NCBI GenBank assembly: GCA_019636655.1
Contig: JAHBXB010000002.1
Location: 694,537 to 758,536 of the forward strand
Source: Phycisphaeraceae bacterium
GTDB lineage: Bacteria > Planctomycetota > Phycisphaerae > Phycisphaerales > UBA1924
DNA length: 64,000 nucleotides
Direction: 5' to 3'
The notes under the pieces were generated by a model, which was not told the origin of the DNA, ran no database searches, and was given only the letters and a program-made list of their open reading frames with translations. The position numbers were made by a program, and so were the translations under genes. Positions 9,409 to 51,732 of the stretch are shown one piece after another. Numbering within the stretch: the stretch's first letter is position 1; each line of letters starts with the position of its first letter.

Positions 9409-10848
9409 TCAGCAGTTGCCCGACAGGGCGTTGAACCACCCGTTCACGAACGTCGCGATGTCTGCGGGCTCGATGAGCCCGTTCCCATCAACATCGCCCA
9501 GCAGCGACGGGGCCGCGATCGACGTGACCCAGTCGTTGATAAATCCAGCAATATCCGCCGGTTCGACGGCGCCGTTCATGTCCCAATCAAAGGGGCACCG
9601 AAGCCCGGGGGGAACACTCACGCCGATGATGGCGACCACCTCGGTGCCGCCGCCGATGGGAACCAGATCGACGTTGGCGTACACCACGGGCTCGTTGGAA
9701 ATATCGAGACCCGGTCCGATCGCGAGCGAGGCGTTGAAATCGGTCAGCGTGTAGTCGGCGATGGTGTCGTTGTCGACATCGATCGTCGCCCCGACCGAGA
9801 GCAGCCGCTTCGTACGGCTCCCCAGCAGCGGCCCGTACCCATAGAACAGCGTCTCGGTGGCGGTGGGGCTGAGGATGAACGCGACCTGGTTTCGGTTGTT
9901 GATCGACACGGAGTTCACGGCCGCGCCCGACGGGATCGCGATCCCGTCCACCACATCACCCTCGCGGACCTTGATCAAACCGTTGTAGGCGATGAACAGG
10001 TCGACGGCCGTGGCGGCGCTGGTGTCGCCGCCGAACACGTAATGACCCGAGTCGTTGATCGAGACGCCGGCGTAGTTCTGCCAGTTGTCGGCCAGCGGCG
10101 ATCCGGTCGGAGAGCCCTCGCGGTGGCGCATCTGTCCATCCACGTAGATAAAGGTGTTGGCGGCCGCGGCTTCGGTCGTGTCGACCTGGTGGATATGGTG
10201 CAGGCCGTTGTCGGAGATGCAGTAGCCGAAGTTGTTCGCGCTCGACAGGAGGGTGAACCCATCGATGACATCGTTCCCGCCCAGCAATCGTGTGAACACG
10301 GGGCCGGGGAACGCCGCCCGGTACAGCGCGCGATTCGTCGTGGAGCCGCCGGACGTCGCGGATTCGCCGGCGACGAAGTAGGCCGTGCCGTCGGCCCCCA
10401 TGCTGGGCCGGCTGGCGAACGACCAGAACAGACCCGTGCCGGGGATGTCGTCGTCGCTGACCGCCAACGCTCCGAGCTGCGTCCAGACCGAGTCGTTCCC
10501 CTCCGTGCTCGGGCTGTAGATGAACTGCCCGGAGTTGCCCACGCCCATCGTCCCTTCTGCGCCGGTCAGCACGCCGGCCCCGGCGTCGGAGTTGCGCCAC
10601 ACGACCTGGTTCTCGAAGAACACGAAGTAGTCGGTGCCGCTGAGCGTCGTCAGGCTCCCGGTGAACCCGATCTTCCCGTTGCCGGCGGTGAACGGCGCGT
10701 TGAGGGTCGAGACCGTGTCTGTTCCAGACCCGGCGAGCACCTGGTTGCGGATGGCGACGAGCGTGACCGACTGCTGAGCGACCGCGATCGCGGCGCTCCC
10801 GGCAACGGCGAACAGAGCGGCGGCAGCGGTGTGGCGTCGTACGTGCAT
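9409..10848 (-). CDS. Secreted protein with C-terminal paired dockerin-like repeats
   Basis: 479 residues. The start at 10848 gives a clear Sec signal peptide (MHVRRHTAAAA... ending AVAQQ, about 1-25) and has GGAAAGGG upstream; the longer frame adds 36 residues lacking signal features. The body (about 26-415) consists of repeated beta-rich segments with NDSG, DGIAIPSG and NNRNQVAF elements, resembling planctomycetal secreted repeat proteins of unknown function. The last 62 residues (418-479) begin and end with Cys. They hold two EF-hand-like repeats (DWDMNGAVEPADIAGFI and GDVDGNGLIEPADIATFV), the same module as in the genes at 27652 and 61094. Likely surface-located; the target is unknown. 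Confidence 0.85.
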   Translation of the reverse strand: MHVRRHTAAAALFAVAGSAAIAVAQQSVTLVAIRNQVLAGSGTDTVSTLNAPFTAGNGKIGFTGSLTTLSGTDYFVFFENQVVWRNSDAGAGVLTGAEGTMGVGNSGQFIYSPSTEGNDSVWTQLGALAVSDDDIPGTGLFWSFASRPSMGADGTAYFVAGESATSGGSTTNRALYRAAFPGPVFTRLLGGNDVIDGFTLLSSANNFGYCISDNGLHHIHQVDTTEAAAANTFIYVDGQMRHREGSPTGSPLADNWQNYAGVSINDSGHYVFGGDTSAATAVDLFIAYNGLIKVREGDVVDGIAIPSGAAVNSVSINNRNQVAFILSPTATETLFYGYGPLLGSRTKRLLSVGATIDVDNDTIADYTLTDFNASLAIGPGLDISNEPVVYANVDLVPIGGGTEVVAIIGVSVPPGLRCPFDWDMNGAVEPADIAGFINDWVTSIAAPSLLGDVDGNGLIEPADIATFVNGWFNALSGNC

Positions 10849-43521: not shown

Positions 43522-45861
43522 TCAGGCCCCGGGGCCCGTTGCGCCGGGGCGGGATCGCCGCGCATACCAGCGGTACAGGCCGCTGCCCTTGATCCGCTGG
43601 ATCAGGCGGTACGGCCGGCTGGCTTTGATCTGTGCGAGCCTGACGTCGGGCGGTTCCGGGGCGGTCGGCGCATCCCACCCCCGGCCGAACCTCGCCCGGG
43701 CCACCGCGCGGTAGATCGCCATGGACTTCAGCCGCGCAACCGCCCGCCAGGCCCGCGAACCGAGGATTTGCTCCAGTTCCTGGTGCGCGCGCAGGGCCGC
43801 ATCCGGGCTGTGGTCGGCAACAGGGAGACCGAGTCGCGCGCGAAGGTCATCAATCGTGCAGCGAGCCCGCCACGCATCCATGTGCTCACGGAAGAACATC
43901 GAGTCCTTCTCGGTAAGGGCGGATTCCATGTGAACGAGGTACATCGGGGCATGACGCTCGACTATCTGGCGAACGGGGATGGGGCGGTGGCGCTGCGTGT
44001 GCGAGAGCATCGAGCCGCCCGCGTGCTGGCGATACATGAACAACGGCTGGGGGACCAGCCGGCCGCGGTAGCCGACCTGGAGCAGCGAGAGCCACAGGTC
44101 CCAGTCCTCCATGCCGTGGAGCATCGATTCCGCGTACCCGCCGGCCAGGTCGAACGCGGACCGCCGGACCAACGCGGTCGCCGTGCTCAGGTTGGCGACC
44201 AGGAGCGTGAAGGGGTTGTACTCCGGGCACCGCCAGGTCCCGGTGGAGCTGCCGAAGTACTCAGCGTGGCAATACGCATAGCCCAGCGATGGGTCAGCCG
44301 CGAGCGGGGCGAGGAGGTACTCGATGAACCCCGGGCGGAGCAGGTCATCGGCGTCCAGCGGGACGAAGAACTCGGCATCGGTGGCCCGGATTCCGGCGTT
44401 CCGCGCCGCGGCGAGCCCGGCGTTGTCCTGACGGATCACCCGTGTCCCTTCGCCCCGGAGCCGGTCGAGCGCTTCGAGTGTGCCCGCCACGGTCGAGCCG
44501 TCGTCCACCACGACGACGTCGACGTTCGTATGCGTCTGGCCGCGGGCGCTCTCCACCGCCTCCCGCACGAACGCCCCGTGGTTGTAGCAGGGGATGACGA
44601 CGGCCACCCTCGGGGGCCGCGGGGCGCGAGCCGCCGCGGGAATCGGCCGGCGCATAGCGACAGACTGAGCCGCGTAGCCCGCGTAGAGCGAGCCGATCTG
44701 CTCGCAGACCCGGTCGGCATGGAAGCAGCCTCGCACGCGCTCCCGCGCTGCAGCGCCCATCTTCCGCCGATCGGCCTCGGGCATGGAGTAGACATCGATC
44801 AGCGTCCTTGCTAGGTCCGCGTCGTCCCCCGCGCGCACCAGGCGGCCGCTCACACCGTCCTCGATCATGTCCCGCATGCCGGAGTAATCGCTGCCGATGC
44901 AAGGACGGGAGAGCGACATGGCCTCCAGGCACGTGTACGGGCCATTCTCGAAGAGCGAGGGAAACACGCACACCCTTGCCGAGGCGAGCCGGCGGAAGAG
45001 GTCCTCGCGTCCCATCCGTCCCGTGAACACCACGCGGTCCGCGTGCCTTGCCGGAACCAGTCGCCCGAGGAACGACCGCATCGATGGTTCGCTCGCGCCG
45101 CGCTCGGCGTCACCACCGATCAGCACCAGGCGAGCCCCCGGGCACGCATCCAGAAACTCCGGGGCGGCTCGCACGAGTTGCTCGACACCCTTGCGTTGCT
45201 CCAGTCGACCGACGAACACGGCTTCCGGAGTTGGTTCCCCGGCGTCGGTCGCCAGGTCCAGCAGGGCGGGGTCCGCGGGGTGGCGCACGATGTCCATCGG
45301 CCCGACCCGCGGCAGGAGCCTACGCAGCACTTCCTCCTGCGGGCCCGGGGGGGCGACGATCCGGTCGGCGAGCAGCATCGCCTCGTTCTCGAGCGCCTCG
45401 AGCACGGGCTTGGGGCCGTCGGCGGTGTTGTACTCGCCGATCACGCAGAGCGGGCAGTGCAGCCTGACGACGCACACGGGGCGCTTGCCCGGCGTTGTGC
45501 GCGCCAGGTAACTGAAGCCCTCCGCAAGGTAGTCGGGAAACTCGATGACATCCGCCCCCTCCACCTCGACGAATCGCTCGAGAAAATCGCCGACACGGTC
45601 CGAGTGGTCCTTCCGGTACGCGAGCGATCGGAGGGGTTCCGGCCCGCTGTGCCTCACGTGCGGGAGGCGGACGACCTCCATCCCGGCGGTGAACTCTCGC
45701 GTGACAAACGGGTCCGCCCCTACGGTCACGACCGTCACGCGGTGCCCCTGTCGGGCAAGCCCGCGGGTCACGATGTCAACATACGTGCCGATCCCCCCGC
45801 CGATCTGCGGGGGATACTCGAACGAGACATACACCAGTCGCAGGGGTCGGTTGGTTTGCAT
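43522..45861 (-). CDS. Fused glycosyltransferase: GT4 domain plus GT2 domain
   Basis: 779 residues from the ATG at 45861; the frame also allows GTG 45903, which lies too close to the -10. Residues about 5-385 are a GT-B GT4 transferase: SFEYPPQIGGGIGTYV, VGRLEQRKGVEQLVRA and the donor-site E-x7-E type FENGPYTCLEAMSLS. Residues about 405-640 are a GT-A GT2 transferase: VAVVIPCYNHGAFVRE, VVVVDDGST and the metal motif PLDADDL. The C-terminal 100 residues are helical and basic. A bifunctional enzyme adding two sugars to one glycan is the likely role. Divergent from a second protein of the same build. Confidence 0.88.
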   Translation of the reverse strand: MQTNRPLRLVYVSFEYPPQIGGGIGTYVDIVTRGLARQGHRVTVVTVGADPFVTREFTAGMEVVRLPHVRHSGPEPLRSLAYRKDHSDRVGDFLERFVEVEGADVIEFPDYLAEGFSYLARTTPGKRPVCVVRLHCPLCVIGEYNTADGPKPVLEALENEAMLLADRIVAPPGPQEEVLRRLLPRVGPMDIVRHPADPALLDLATDAGEPTPEAVFVGRLEQRKGVEQLVRAAPEFLDACPGARLVLIGGDAERGASEPSMRSFLGRLVPARHADRVVFTGRMGREDLFRRLASARVCVFPSLFENGPYTCLEAMSLSRPCIGSDYSGMRDMIEDGVSGRLVRAGDDADLARTLIDVYSMPEADRRKMGAAARERVRGCFHADRVCEQIGSLYAGYAAQSVAMRRPIPAAARAPRPPRVAVVIPCYNHGAFVREAVESARGQTHTNVDVVVVDDGSTVAGTLEALDRLRGEGTRVIRQDNAGLAAARNAGIRATDAEFFVPLDADDLLRPGFIEYLLAPLAADPSLGYAYCHAEYFGSSTGTWRCPEYNPFTLLVANLSTATALVRRSAFDLAGGYAESMLHGMEDWDLWLSLLQVGYRGRLVPQPLFMYRQHAGGSMLSHTQRHRPIPVRQIVERHAPMYLVHMESALTEKDSMFFREHMDAWRARCTIDDLRARLGLPVADHSPDAALRAHQELEQILGSRAWRAVARLKSMAIYRAVARARFGRGWDAPTAPEPPDVRLAQIKASRPYRLIQRIKGSGLYRWYARRSRPGATGPGA

Positions 45862-45903
45862 CTCGGTCCGAGGCCTGCTCCACTTCGAGGTCGCGGCGAC
45901 CAC

Positions 45904-45911
45904 CTTATAGT
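45904..45911. promoter_or_regulatory. Overlapping divergent -10 elements
   Basis: CTTATAGT reads TATAGT on the plus strand (45906-45911) and TATAAG on the minus strand (45909-45904). Two divergent GT4-GT2 genes (starts 45861 minus, 45948 plus) would compete for one RNA polymerase site. -35 elements are weak. Confidence 0.4.
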
Positions 45912-45947
45912 TCGCGGTCGGGCGTCACGGGGCATACGGAGGCGGTC

Positions 45948-48254
45948 ATGCGGATTTGTCTGGTCTCACGCGAGGCCTACCCGTTCATCGGCGGCGGTAT
46001 CGCGGCGTACGTCGCGGAAATCGGCAGCGCCCTCGTTGCCGCGGGACATGAGCTGCACCTGCTGACGTATCCGTATGAAAGCCTGACGACCCGCGGCGCG
46101 GACGCCCTCCCCGGCGTCGTCTTCCACTCCGTGGACACCAGCGACGGCCCCGCGGCGATTCCCGGCGCCTACTTCTGCGAAGCCGCCCAGTACGCCATGG
46201 CCGTGTACTCGACGCTCAAGGGGCTCCACGAGATCCACCGCTTCGATTACATCGAGTTCCCGGAGTACCGCGGCGAGGGATACTTCGCCCTGCGGGCCAA
46301 GCGCACGCTCGGCCACTTCGAGGGCGCGGTGCTTGGCGTCCGCCTCCACACGCCGCTGTACCTCTGCCACGACCTGGACCTGCAGTCCTCGCTCTCGCTC
46401 GAGATCGAGATCCTGAGGCACATGGAGATCCGCTCGGCCGCCAACGCCGATGTGCTCCTCTCGGCCAGCCGATCGATGATGGATCGCATGCTCTGCGAGA
46501 TGGGGGACGAGGCGCCGCCGGAATCGGCTCAATCCCGCGTGGTGCTCCCTCTGCCTGTTCACCTCGACACGCTATCGGAGCGGATGGGCGTGGATCTTGT
46601 GGAGGCCAAACGCCCGGTCCCCGTCACCACCGCCGGCCACGCGACCAGGACGGTGCTGTACTTCGGCCGGCTGCAACTGATCAAGGGGGTTGTGGAGCTT
46701 GTCGAGGCGGGCAAGCGGCTCCTGGAGCGGGGACTGGATCTCCGGTTCCTGCTTGTCGGCGGCGACACGCTCAGCGGCCCGTTCGGCCGGAGCATGCTCG
46801 CACACCTCGAAAAACTCGTCCAGGGCCCGTGGCGTGACCGGTTCGAGTTCGCCGGCCAGTACCCACGCGAGAGGCTCGGCCCTGCGATCCGGCAGGCCGC
46901 GGTCTGCTGCCTCCCCTCGCGATGGGAGTCATTCTCGATGGCCTGCATCGAGGCGATGTCGCTGGGCGCCGTCGTCGTCGCGGGGGACGCGGGCGGCCTG
47001 GGCGAGATCATCGAGGACGGCAAGAACGGCGTGAAGTTCGCCGCCGGCGAGGCCGCCTCGCTCGAGCAGGCGCTGCTCCGCGCCCTCGAAGACGAATCCC
47101 TCCGCGCCACCATTGCCGCGAACGCCCCCAAGCGGGCCTTCGAGATCAGCGACTCGGCGTCGATCGTCCGCGGCCTGGGCGAGGCCATCGCCGCCGCCCG
47201 CCCGATGACCGCCCGCGAGGAGCGTCGCGCGGCCGCCGCGGCGGCCCGCCGGGCGCGCGCCGAGGGGCCAGACCTGACGGTGGTCATCCCGTTCTACAAC
47301 GTCGGCCACTACCTGCCCGAGACGCTCGACTCGATCCACGCCCAGACGCACCGCGATTTCGACCTGATCATCGTCAACGACGGCTCCACCGAACCGCACA
47401 GCCTCCGCCTGCTGGCCGACCTGGAACGCGACGGCTACCGCGTCGTTCACAAGCCCAATGGCGGCCTCGGCTCGGCGCGAAACGCGGGGTTCCACGCCGC
47501 TCGCAGCAAGTGGATCATCCCCATCGACGGCGACGACCTGGCGCACCCGACCATGGTCGAGAAACTGCTGGGCGCGATCAAGCGGGGCGACCCCGTCGGC
47601 GGCCTCGCCTCGGTGAGCCCGATGTTCGTCTCGTTCACCGACCGGCACGAGAACCTGGTCTCGGGCTACGCGCCGATGGCCTTCGACCGCGACCTGCTGC
47701 TGGCGCGGAACATCGCCGGGCCCGGCGGCGGATCGATCCTTGATCGCCAGGCCGTGCTCGATGTCGGCGGCTACGACGAGTGGCTGACCAGCTACGAGGA
47801 CTGGGACATGTGGTGCCGCCTGGCCAAGACCGGCCGGCGCGGCGTCGCACTCCCCGAGTTCCTCCTCTACTACCGCCTCCGCCCGGGGTCGCTGATGCGC
47901 GCCGAGGCCATCCCCCGCAACCAGGCGCTCAAGTCCTACCTGCTCTCGAAGCACGCCGACATGGCCCTCTCGCCCTCGCGCGTCCTCCGGCTCGAGCACG
48001 CCGAGGCCGAGCGGTACAAGGCCCTCGCCGCACTCCGCGAATCCCAGGCGCACGACCTCGAGGCCCGCCTGCACGCCTCCGCCACACTCGACGGCGCCGA
48101 CCCGATCGCCCGCACCCGCGCCGAGATCCGCGCCCGCGAACTCATCGACCAGAACATCCGCTACCGGATGGTCGACAAGGTGAACACCGCGATGAAGGCC
48201 ATCCGGATCCAGCGCCCCGTCAAACGGCTGCTCAGGATGCGACCGGGGCGCTGA
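45948..48254 (+). CDS. Fused glycosyltransferase: GT4 domain plus GT2 domain
   Basis: 768 residues, ATG with GGAGG 5 bases upstream. GT4 part (about 1-410): SREAYPFIGGGIAAYV, YFGRLQLIKGVVELV and SRWESFSMACIEAMSLG. GT2 part (about 440-660): LTVVIPFYNVGHYLPE, IIVNDGSTEPHS and the metal motif PIDGDDLAHP. The C-terminal helices are charged. The build parallels the divergent gene at 43522, so the pair may have arisen by duplication, though the sequences have diverged strongly. Its 3' end overlaps the next convergent gene by 23 bases. Confidence 0.88.
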   Translation: MRICLVSREAYPFIGGGIAAYVAEIGSALVAAGHELHLLTYPYESLTTRGADALPGVVFHSVDTSDGPAAIPGAYFCEAAQYAMAVYSTLKGLHEIHRFDYIEFPEYRGEGYFALRAKRTLGHFEGAVLGVRLHTPLYLCHDLDLQSSLSLEIEILRHMEIRSAANADVLLSASRSMMDRMLCEMGDEAPPESAQSRVVLPLPVHLDTLSERMGVDLVEAKRPVPVTTAGHATRTVLYFGRLQLIKGVVELVEAGKRLLERGLDLRFLLVGGDTLSGPFGRSMLAHLEKLVQGPWRDRFEFAGQYPRERLGPAIRQAAVCCLPSRWESFSMACIEAMSLGAVVVAGDAGGLGEIIEDGKNGVKFAAGEAASLEQALLRALEDESLRATIAANAPKRAFEISDSASIVRGLGEAIAAARPMTAREERRAAAAAARRARAEGPDLTVVIPFYNVGHYLPETLDSIHAQTHRDFDLIIVNDGSTEPHSLRLLADLERDGYRVVHKPNGGLGSARNAGFHAARSKWIIPIDGDDLAHPTMVEKLLGAIKRGDPVGGLASVSPMFVSFTDRHENLVSGYAPMAFDRDLLLARNIAGPGGGSILDRQAVLDVGGYDEWLTSYEDWDMWCRLAKTGRRGVALPEFLLYYRLRPGSLMRAEAIPRNQALKSYLLSKHADMALSPSRVLRLEHAEAERYKALAALRESQAHDLEARLHASATLDGADPIARTRAEIRARELIDQNIRYRMVDKVNTAMKAIRIQRPVKRLLRMRPGR

Positions 48255-50559
48255 GCCGACGGCCCGGGGTGACGGTCACGCCGTCTCCATTGGCCCGCGC
48301 GTGGCCCGCCGGCCCGTCCCCCGTCGCGCCCGACGTCGCGGGTCCGGATCCCAGGTTCAGGAAGTCCTCAACCGACCGCCGGCACCGGGCCTCGTACGTC
48401 GGCAAGTACCGCCGGTACTCGGCCGCGATCTCCACACGCTCGTCGATCGCCCGCACCAGGTATTCCGCGATGACGTCGGCCCGCTCCGGGAACGGCACCA
48501 CGAGCCGCTCGTAGAGATACCGGTTGTCCTCGAACAGATGGCTCACCGGCCCGATCAGGCACGGCACACCCATCCGCAGGCTCTCCAAGGGCAGCATCGG
48601 GCAGCACTCCGCGAACGTCACGTACATCGTGCAGTGCGTGCGCCGCATCGCCGGGAACAACTCGTCATGCGTGAGCTGGTCGCTCTGCATGCGGACGCAC
48701 GGGATGCCCAGGTACTCGATCACCGCACGCGCACGTTCATCGACACCCGTCGCGTGCAGCCGCACCTCGGGCACGAGCTTGAGCGCCGAGAGCGCCGCGT
48801 GCGGGTTCTTCCGCGAGGTGAACCCCGAGAGCCACATGCCCACGTGCCGCTCATTGGGCGGCAGGTCCGTCGCCGGCTCCACGCACTCGCCATCGACCCG
48901 GTTGAGCAGCACCGCCGACCGGACGCCGAGCGAGCGGAACAGCCGATCCTGGCCGAACTTGTCCGTCGCGATGCTGTGGATCACGCCCCGCCGCGCGGCG
49001 TCGACCCACATCCCAAAGAGCTGCCACGTGTAGTCCTCGGAGAACTGCACGTACGAAGCGTGCCAGAACAGGTCAAACCGCGCCGACGGCCGCAGCCTCC
49101 GCACCGCCTCCACCAGCCGGAGCTGCGCCGTGTCGCCGCCGGAGACGACGACGTGCTCCACGCCGGTCGCCGCGATCACCGCCGCGTGGTGCTCGATCTG
49201 ATCCGCCGGGATGTTGTACGGGTCTTCCTCGCGGGTCGCGGGCACCGGGTACCAGTGCTCGAAGAGCCCGCGCGTCGACGACGTCACCCCGAGCCACCTG
49301 GGGCACGAGACCGCCAGCACGCGCGGCGAGGCCGCCCGCACCGACTCGATGTACTGCTGCTCCCGCGCCGAGAACATCCGGAGTTTCGTGCGCGACGCCG
49401 TGCTCACCGGTGCCGCCGGCGCTTCGGGCGCAACCGGCCGGGCGACCGCGGCCTGCCGCATCGGGTTCTGCGCCGGGCGAACCGTCACGGTCCCCGAATC
49501 GGCGCCGGTTCCCGATACGGAAAGGTCGATCGTCTCCCGCCGCCCCATGAACTCGACCTCGACCAGCCCGCTCCACCCGTGCGACAGAAAGACCAGTTCC
49601 GGATCGGTATCCACCGGCACCCGCGCCGTCCCTGTACCGGCGCACACGAGGCAGCGACCGTACGCCCGATCCGCGGCGGCCCTCGCAGCAAAGCCCCCGT
49701 CACTCTCAATAAAGTCCCACGGCACTGGGGCTAGCCCCGCATTGGCCCGCCCCTCGAGCAGCCACACCTCAGTCCCCTGCGAGCCCGCGCCCGGGCGGCC
49801 CAGGGCACGCACCGTCACGATCCGCTGGTTGCGGTTCCTCAGCCATCGCAGCCGGTTCCACCACCCGTTGCGGCGAAGCCTCGCGCCGACGCGGTACGTC
49901 GAGTGGGCCTTGATATACGCCAACTCATCCGCCATCTCGCAGACGCGCCGGACCACCGTGTCCTCGTCCGGCAGGCGCGGCGCCGGGGGTGCCGACTCCC
50001 GCGAATGAGCCGGTGTTCCCAGCGAAGCTCGAACGTGCTTCGGATCGCTCTTCGACAGGCAGAACACGCCCACGGCGTTGCCGTCGTGGTCCGCGAACAG
50101 CGCGTGGCGGACGCACGACAACGACTCAAAGTCCCGCGGCTCCCACGACCCCGATCCGTCCGCCGGCCCGTCGCCGTCACCGAGCATGACTTGGGCCACG
50201 ACATAGTCCGCACGGTCGAGCGCCGCGCCGAGCAGCGCCCTGCCCGCGTCCCTCCCGCCGCCCCGAAGAATCCCGCTGCCGACCATCACGGCATCCCACC
50301 GACCCGTCTGCGACTCCAGGACTTCCGCTGGCCTCCCCTCGTGAACGGCGTCGTACAGACCGCGGCGTGCCGCATCGAGGCCGCTGCCCGAGGCCGCGAT
50401 CCCTTCAAGCCGCGCCCGCGCGCCGCGGCGGTCATCGCAGAACTCGCGCAGGATCACCCCCCACCGGCCCGAGTCCGCACTGACATCAAGCAGCCGATCC
50501 GGCGCGATCGCCCGCAGCAGATCGATGCAGAAGGGAATGTCATGCCAGGTCGTTGCCAC
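48232..50559 (-). CDS. Methyltransferase-like domain fused to GT4-like glycosyltransferase
   Basis: 775 residues from GTG 50559 (GGAGAG about 9 bases upstream). The N-terminal part (about 1-180) begins WHDIPFCIDLLRAIAPDRLLDVSADSGRWG, a Rossmann methyltransferase opening with a degenerate SAM loop. The middle (180-390) is a less ordered spacer with a beta part. The C-terminal part (about 400-760) is GT-B-like, with DPYNIPADQIEHH, WLSGFTSRKNPHAAL and the donor-site TFAECCPMLPLESLRMG. A final Gly/Ala tail follows. It lies 39 bases after the GT29-like gene and probably acts on the same glycan. Confidence 0.75.
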   Translation of the reverse strand: MATTWHDIPFCIDLLRAIAPDRLLDVSADSGRWGVILREFCDDRRGARARLEGIAASGSGLDAARRGLYDAVHEGRPAEVLESQTGRWDAVMVGSGILRGGGRDAGRALLGAALDRADYVVAQVMLGDGDGPADGSGSWEPRDFESLSCVRHALFADHDGNAVGVFCLSKSDPKHVRASLGTPAHSRESAPPAPRLPDEDTVVRRVCEMADELAYIKAHSTYRVGARLRRNGWWNRLRWLRNRNQRIVTVRALGRPGAGSQGTEVWLLEGRANAGLAPVPWDFIESDGGFAARAAADRAYGRCLVCAGTGTARVPVDTDPELVFLSHGWSGLVEVEFMGRRETIDLSVSGTGADSGTVTVRPAQNPMRQAAVARPVAPEAPAAPVSTASRTKLRMFSAREQQYIESVRAASPRVLAVSCPRWLGVTSSTRGLFEHWYPVPATREEDPYNIPADQIEHHAAVIAATGVEHVVVSGGDTAQLRLVEAVRRLRPSARFDLFWHASYVQFSEDYTWQLFGMWVDAARRGVIHSIATDKFGQDRLFRSLGVRSAVLLNRVDGECVEPATDLPPNERHVGMWLSGFTSRKNPHAALSALKLVPEVRLHATGVDERARAVIEYLGIPCVRMQSDQLTHDELFPAMRRTHCTMYVTFAECCPMLPLESLRMGVPCLIGPVSHLFEDNRYLYERLVVPFPERADVIAEYLVRAIDERVEIAAEYRRYLPTYEARCRRSVEDFLNLGSGPATSGATGDGPAGHARANGDGVTVTPGRRLSAPVAS

Positions 50560-50598: not shown

Positions 50599-51732
50599 TC
50601 ACACCCCGACCCCCAAGACCCGAACCAGGCTCTTGACCAGCCGCTCACGCTCCCACGCGGCGCTCGCCGCGAGATGCTTCGCCGCGACCAGATCGGCCGC
50701 ATCCGACGCCACGATCTGCTCGGCGAGGCGGTCCTTCCGGGCGACCGCGTCCCGCAGCCTCCGCACCTCGGCGGACAGATGCTCCTCCCGTTCGGCCCCC
50801 GCCGCCACGCGCGCGGCGAGTGCTCGAGCCTCATCGTGGAGCCGGGCCGTCTCCTCGCCGAGCCGGCGCGAGGTCTCCTCGAGGGCCGCGCCCACCCGCC
50901 TCAGTTCGTCGTCCAGTTCCGCCGCCCGCCGGACCGCGGCCTCTCTCTCTCTCGCCACGGGCTCGATCTCCGCAACCCGCTTCAGCAGCGAATCCCGCTC
51001 CGCCCAGAGCCGCCGGACGTGCTCGTGCGCCTCGAGCAACTCCCTCTCGTGCCGGAACCCGGCCGAGGTCAACTCCTGCGCCAGCCGCAGGAGTTTCTGG
51101 TTCTCCTCCCACAGCATGGCTTCCACTTCGCCGGCCGCCGATTCCCGTCGCTCCTCGGCCTTTCCACCAAGGCCCGCGCCAACCTCCAGGGCCTCCGCCT
51201 GGCGGGCCGGGTCCAAGAACTCGACCTGCCCCTCGGCGATCAGTTCGAGGAACAGCAGCCGCTCCCGCGTCCCGGAGTGCTTCGGCCCGGCGACGGCGGA
51301 ATCGCTGTAGTGGTGCGATGGGCCCTGGAAAAAATCGAACCCGTGGAGCACGACCTTCCATCCGGCGCGAATGTACGTCATCGCCGCGAGGAGCCCGGAC
51401 GAGGGGTGCTCGTACCCCAGTCGCGCGATCGTCGCCTCCACGTCGTCCCACTTCAGACGCCGTGCGTGCGGGTAGCGGGCCACCATCTCCTGCCAGTTGT
51501 CGACCGGCGGACGGGCCACGCACAGCACGCGCGGGTACTCACTCCTCGCCTGCTCCGCAAACAGCGTCCAGGTGATCCACTCGTCTGTCCGGGAGCCCAC
51601 CTGCTCCTCGTGCCCGTCGATCCGGAACTCGTTGAACCGCGCCACCACGCCGTCAAAGGCGTCGACCGCAGCGCCCAGGTCACCCTGGAGAGCGCTGGGC
51701 CCGTTGCCGATCAGCAGGACACGGTCGCTCAA
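50599..51732 (-). CDS. GT29-like (sialyltransferase-type) glycosyltransferase with coiled-coil tail
   Basis: 377 residues from TTG 51732 (GGAG 7 bases upstream; no ATG or GTG is available in the N-terminal part). Residues 1-205 match the three sialylmotifs of family GT29: L-type VLLIGNGPSALQG...FDGVVARFNEF (5-36), S-type HPSSGLLAAMTYIRAGW followed by VVLHGFDFF (about 119-146), and VS-type H-x4-E as KHSGTRE (about 159-165). The rest (about 210-365) is a long, charged coiled coil. Donor may be CMP-sialic acid or a related CMP sugar. It is the first gene of a pair with the methyltransferase-glycosyltransferase fusion. Confidence 0.7.
   Translation of the reverse strand: MSDRVLLIGNGPSALQGDLGAAVDAFDGVVARFNEFRIDGHEEQVGSRTDEWITWTLFAEQARSEYPRVLCVARPPVDNWQEMVARYPHARRLKWDDVEATIARLGYEHPSSGLLAAMTYIRAGWKVVLHGFDFFQGPSHHYSDSAVAGPKHSGTRERLLFLELIAEGQVEFLDPARQAEALEVGAGLGGKAEERRESAAGEVEAMLWEENQKLLRLAQELTSAGFRHERELLEAHEHVRRLWAERDSLLKRVAEIEPVAREREAAVRRAAELDDELRRVGAALEETSRRLGEETARLHDEARALAARVAAGAEREEHLSAEVRRLRDAVARKDRLAEQIVASDAADLVAAKHLAASAAWERERLVKSLVRVLGVGV

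Follow-up and report, generated by a model that had tools for sequence, protein, structure and literature searches.

A GT29-family glycosyltransferase with a C-terminal coiled coil in a Phycisphaeraceae bacterium, its candidate donor pathways and its viral relatives

The window analysed here is a stretch of 64,000 nucleotides from a Phycisphaeraceae bacterium. On its minus strand, the gene of interest (Table 1) begins with a TTG codon at position 51732. The sequence GGAG was read seven bases 5' of this TTG, and the N-termini of relatives lie 2-3 residues ahead of the same first strand. The gene has the GC content of its surroundings and a codon pattern resembling that of the neighbouring genes. 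The contig carrying it, 1.06 Mb long and from a 98%-complete genome, is no short stray fragment. The encoded protein starts at the first strand and has no N-terminal membrane anchor of the Golgi type. C70 is its only cysteine; therefore, no disulphide can link motifs L and S.

The gene belongs to a small glycosyltransferase cluster, which is flanked by genes for the NADH dehydrogenase 49-kDa subunit and leucyl aminopeptidase. The next gene in the same direction starts 39 bp past the GT29 stop codon. No Pfam or NCBIfam matches were found for its 775-aa product, which by eye appeared methyltransferase-like at the N-terminus and GT-B-like at the C-terminus. When 60 other genomes of the host's family were searched, homologues of this protein turned up in 3, one of them adjoining a GT4-GT2 gene. 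Two genes for two-domain GT4-GT2 glycosyltransferases complete the cluster. At three high-GC loci, tblastn was used.

Table 1. Coordinates of the features discussed (numbering of the window, continued beyond its end for the neu cluster and the adjoining gene; L numbers denote other loci)
Feature	Position	Strand	Basis
GT29 glycosyltransferase with C-terminal coiled coil, 377 aa, TTG start	50599..51732	-	ORF, Pfam
GT29 catalytic domain, about residues 1-186	51175..51732	-	PF00777, AF2, PDB ranks
Sialylmotif L, residues 4-52 (LIGNGPSAL...RFN...GSRTDEW)	51577..51723	-	homologue alignment
Sialylmotif S, residues 109-132 (HPSSGLL...LHGF)	51337..51408	-	homologue alignment
Sialylmotif III, H141-Y142-S-D	51301..51312	-	read off alignment
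Sialylmotif VS, H152-x4-E157	51262..51279	-	homologue alignment
Charged helical coiled-coil tail, about residues 201-377, short amphipathic helix at end	50602..51132	-	heptad periodicity, AF2
775-aa protein	48232..50559	-	ORF
GT4-GT2 two-domain glycosyltransferase	45948..48254	+	domain scan
GT4-GT2 two-domain glycosyltransferase	43522..45834	-	domain scan
neuC	66251-67399	-	above NeuC equivalog cut-off
neuB	67423-68535	-	below equivalog cut-offs for Neu5Ac and Pse synthases
neuA, PseF/KdsB-like cytidylyltransferase	68532-69278	-	below PseF and KdsB cut-offs
1253-aa MptE-like/PseD (Maf-type) and spiroSPASM-type radical-SAM protein	69290-73051 (L014:9290-13051)	-	
Example viral GT29 loci	L066:978-4825, L082:5058-8873, L106:1797-4597, L110:542-2576, L138:4425-6480		

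The assignment to GT29 rests on profiles, motifs and predicted fold, all computed directly. In a Pfam scan, the 377-aa protein scored 31.5 bits (E 1.5e-7) with PF00777 (GT29), for which the curated cut-off is 23. A single-sequence phmmer search of the PDB yielded three weak matches, ST3Gal1 among them (E 0.51). A profile built from six homologues recovered mammalian ST3Gal1 (2e-18), ST6GalNAc2 (1e-13), ST6Gal1 (3e-13) and ST8SiaIII; its matches down to E 1 were sialyltransferases exclusively, including GT42 CstII at 5e-6. With a 65-sequence profile, the best match improved to 8e-27. The AlphaFold (AF2) model of the catalytic domain from the 65-sequence alignment reached a pLDDT of 87.7 and a pTM of 0.85; an initial model from a two-sequence alignment (catalytic-domain pLDDT of 56.8) served for the helical tail only. 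When the catalytic-domain model was compared with PDB structures, ranks 1-30 went to GT29 sialyltransferases without exception (best E 2.2e-7, TMq at most 0.67). The predicted fold was closest to GT29 structures, ahead of every other fold, as the first-pass annotation had proposed.

The first fold match outside GT29, at rank 31, was the MptE (DUF115-type) structure 8sd5 with an E-value of 0.0097, and the 65-sequence profile picked up GT42 CstII at 5e-8. Both observations would fit a DUF115/MptE-like (Maf-type) or GT42 enzyme of similar fold that is no GT29 member, which is extremely improbable: Pfam matches to PF01973 (DUF115/MptE-like) and to GT42 were absent at E<=10, MptE ranked far below the GT29 structures, all four GT29 motifs are present, and the MptE-like protein of the genome is encoded by another gene. 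The DUF115 and GT42 identities were ruled out on the Pfam scan and the PDB fold ranking, and between DUF115 and GT29, which the first-pass annotation had set against each other, the comparison favoured GT29. The window protein is almost certainly a true member of the GT29 family.

The sialylmotifs occur in the order L, S, III, VS. Motifs L, S and VS had been read in order within the first 205 residues from the sequence alone, and alignment with homologues placed them there; motif III (H141-Y142), missing from that earlier list, is also present. Residues of note are G9-N10, D24, D27, R32, N34 and G46 in motif L, and S111-S112-G113 and G131-F132 in motif S. In 65 aligned homologues, G46, S/T111, G113, G131 and E157 were invariant (65/65 each), and H152 was found in 64 of 65. 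These six positions lie outside the pattern by which the homologues were retrieved; the pattern fixes several motif-L residues, and the conservation of those was left out of the evidence. H152 is the predicted catalytic base, being the counterpart of the motif-VS histidine described in that role (PMC10225777). Between D27 and R32, immediately before R32-x-N34, motif L carries a one-residue insertion (window about 51637-51652) that was seen in none of the 64 other aligned GT29 domains.

The C-terminal tail is composed differently. Residues 200-360, approximately, are 38% charged and include one proline. The 3.5-residue hydrophobic periodicity of the tail was 1.06 as compared to 0.55 ± 0.10, and none of 500 shuffles matched it; this heptad pattern was likewise computed directly. 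The full-length AF2 model showed a single continuous helix from residue 175 to 372 with moderate confidence. Thus, the tail has both the extended helix and the heptad periodicity by which a coiled coil was defined. None of the 123 viral GT29 ORFs described below possesses a coiled tail. More than 60 residues C-terminal of the GT29 domain were present in 2 of them, by eye methyltransferases, while 23 of the 123 had more than 100 residues N-terminal of it; the domains found in ten long viral ORFs that were scanned included GT4, GT8, FkbM, methyltransferase and cytidylyltransferase. The cellular GT29 homologues examined stop soon after the domain. Neither viral nor cellular relatives have such a tail; within the sampled relatives, a GT29 domain joined to a coil is thus out of the ordinary, and the earlier description of an unusual charged coiled coil of about 150 residues holds. 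The coil most likely mediates formation of a dimer or larger oligomer, and it would keep the enzyme near partner transferases or the membrane, in the putative role of oligomeriser or scaffold.

The insertion and the tail also bear on whether the protein is still an enzyme. A GT29-derived protein with lost or changed catalysis, the domain of which binds a nucleotide or glycan while the coil is the working part as a scaffold, would be consistent with the unique insertion next to R-x-N of motif L, with the occurrence of GT29 in just 1 of 163 genomes of the host's family, and with a long tail unlike those of relatives. This is improbable, as the predicted donor-binding and catalytic residues N10, R32, N34, S111, G113, G131, H152 and E157 are retained, which is unexpected after loss of function, and the AF2 model is confident across the insertion.

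The presence of pathways for potential donors was determined directly in the genome. A neuC-neuB-neuA cluster lies 14.5 kb from the GT29 gene on the same strand, starting 2.3 kb beyond the window end. A search for all three genes had been suggested by the first-pass annotation as a check, and all three were found in this one cluster. By these gene assignments, the genome is predicted to make a CMP-nonulosonic acid. The Maf/PseD-type protein encoded beside the neu cluster is itself a candidate nonulosonic-acid transferase. NeuC was present in 60 of 61 sampled genomes of the host's family, as compared to 1 of 163 for GT29. Therefore, the nonulosonic-acid pathway is older than GT29 in this family and was not acquired for it; GT29 is the addition. 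The older pathway plausibly serves flagellin modification by the Maf-type protein. In addition, the genome contains KdsB, above the cut-off, and WaaA. CMP-Kdo is therefore available, and the genome appears to both make and use it.

Across the phylum, GT29 was found in 5 of 392 genomes, the window genome included; a peptide-pattern search of genome contigs gave one relative only. The statement that GT29 is sparse in bacteria thus applies to this phylum, whereas it does not extend to phage contigs, with at least 120 stretches. In a Candidatus Neomarinimicrobiota locus (L004), the GT29 gene (35% identity) is directly followed by genes for a PseF-like cytidylyltransferase and NeuB, and a HAD phosphatase gene and a WaaA-like gene were noted by eye further along. 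In two planctomycete genomes, a cytidylyltransferase-like domain is fused N-terminal to GT29 (L029:9474-10691; L030 about 9414-10650), and a cytidylyltransferase-GT29 fusion also occurs in a viral contig (L057:6530-7972). Such fusions unite the activation of the donor with its transfer in a single polypeptide. Adjacency and fusion in relatives tie GT29 to genes for CMP-ulosonic acids.

GT29 is common in viral contigs. A degenerate motif-L pattern, which misses the window gene owing to its one-residue insertion, retrieved at least 120 stretches (L034-L153), and all 123 ORFs from the viral stretches matched the GT29 profile; viral scans seeded with single proteins found no relatives. Among the matches listed, 12 of 120 viral loci had NeuA and/or NeuB close to GT29, several of these being compact NeuA-NeuB-GT29 cassettes, and about 90% of the viral loci had no NeuA/NeuB within the DNA stretches covered. 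As a rough background, since this collection differs from that of the viral contigs, close NeuB relatives were found in 2 of 50,697 phage records. The 484-kb uncultured phage LR756508.1 harbours four GT29 genes in 5 kb (L021:5962-10780); a NeuB synthase gene separates the first two of them, and two sugar-epimerase-like genes lie upstream. In the second NeuB-bearing phage record, no GT29 was found within 10 kb of NeuB. Four viral GT29 proteins examined matched no PHROG family. In BFVD, at least one phage protein bears the name glycosyl transferase family 29. A literature search found no paper on phage GT29, which is not proof of absence.

In the phylogenetic tree, the window gene fell within an 11-row viral clade (97/95) with L115 as its sister (99/92; 38% identity). 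Phage L046, where a KdsB-like cytidylyltransferase gene (L046:3672-4433) lies 167 bp upstream of GT29, belongs to the same clade; in L046 and L048, GT29 is located beside terminase or portal genes. The L046 terminase gene (L046:8169-11357) is interrupted by an intein-like segment. Since only viral contigs were densely sampled for the tree, this placement does not show a phage origin of the window gene. Recent capture from a phage was considered and is unproven, the GC content being equal to that of the surroundings.

Taken together, the donor of the window enzyme is very probably a CMP-ulosonic acid. The neu cluster of the genome, the gene order in L004, the fusions, the 12 of 120 viral loci and LR756508.1 count in favour of a nonulosonic acid. 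Several observations count against it: the neu cluster is not adjacent to GT29 and stands beside the candidate Maf/PseD-type transferase, NeuC is nearly universal in the host's family without GT29, CMP-Kdo is made by the genome and a KdsB-like gene accompanies GT29 in the clade-mate L046, motif L has its unique insertion, and about 90% of the listed viral loci are without NeuA/NeuB. With CMP-Kdo or another short ulosonic acid as donor, the protein would be the Kdo-type transferase for a polysaccharide of the surface or for a glycan linked to lipid A. This is possible, though doubtful. KdsB above the cut-off and WaaA in the genome, the KdsB-like gene of L046 and the plant GT29 RCKT1/MGP2, assigned as a CMP-Kdo transferase (PMC11288761), are in line with it. 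However, the donor-synthesis genes beside GT29 mostly encode NeuB and PseF-like cytidylyltransferases and not KdsB, and a dedicated WaaA-type Kdo transferase is already present in the genome. On balance, an active enzyme using a nonulosonic acid rather than Kdo is mildly favoured.

From this evidence we infer catalytic activity, donor choice, acceptor and the role of the coil as follows. The GT29 enzyme would work in the cytoplasm and use a CMP-activated nonulosonic (sialic-acid-like) sugar supplied by NeuC, NeuB and NeuA of the genome. Transfer onto a growing glycan would be inverting, with H152 as catalytic base. The acceptor glycan is probably built by the neighbouring multi-domain glycosyltransferases (43522-50559), and GT29 would cap it. 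Because genes for making the corresponding activated sugar are also present, the enzyme probably adds a sialic-acid-like unit and thereby decorates a surface sugar chain. A cytoplasmic CMP-nonulosonic-acid transferase that caps the glycan of the adjacent glycosyltransferases, with the coil as oligomeriser or scaffold, is the best explanation, held with slight preference.

More tentatively, prokaryotic GT29 might be a large, mostly phage-borne family of CMP-ulosonic-acid transferases, some in NeuA-NeuB-GT29 cassettes, from which the host took one compact transferase, fused it to a coil and fed it from its older flagellar nonulosonic-acid pathway. If this were true, the family would be prokaryotic and viral for the most part, with the eukaryotic sialyltransferases as a single branch. 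Thanks to the phage copies, tests of where the eukaryotic enzymes originated can draw on many more sequences than the 23 from bacteria used in 2018. Compact, cysteine-poor GT29 domains could possibly be used in sialoside production.

The GT29 family is already known; what is added here is its occurrence in this taxon, the way the domains are arranged and the evidence from gene linkage. The range of GT29 now includes a planctomycete-like lineage, where its domain arrangement is new, and fusions and neighbours provide linkage evidence for the use of CMP-ulosonic acids by prokaryotic GT29s, an assignment that in 2018 rested on motif similarity (PMC5811610). The mammalian enzymes ST3Gal1 (2wnb), ST6GalNAc2 (6apl), ST8SiaIII (5bo9) and ST6Gal1 (4js1) share motifs L, S, III and VS, the fold and the profile match with the window protein, which differs by a catalytic domain about 100 residues shorter, a single cysteine, the lack of a membrane anchor and the added coiled-coil tail. 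GT42 CstII/CstI (1ro7, 2p2v) show distant profile similarity to the window protein, which has no GT42 Pfam match. The plant protein RCKT1/MGP2, a Golgi membrane protein, is, like the window protein, a GT29 member outside animals; since it has been assigned CMP-Kdo as donor (PMC11288761), membership in GT29 is no proof of a sialic acid donor. Bacterial GT29s were reported in 2018 with 23 sequences, 19 of them alphaproteobacterial (PMC5811610), and like the window protein they have no conserved disulphide cysteines and no transmembrane segment and have kept the sialylmotifs. Planctomycetes and coiled coils are unmentioned in that report, whereas the window protein has both a planctomycete host and a coiled coil.
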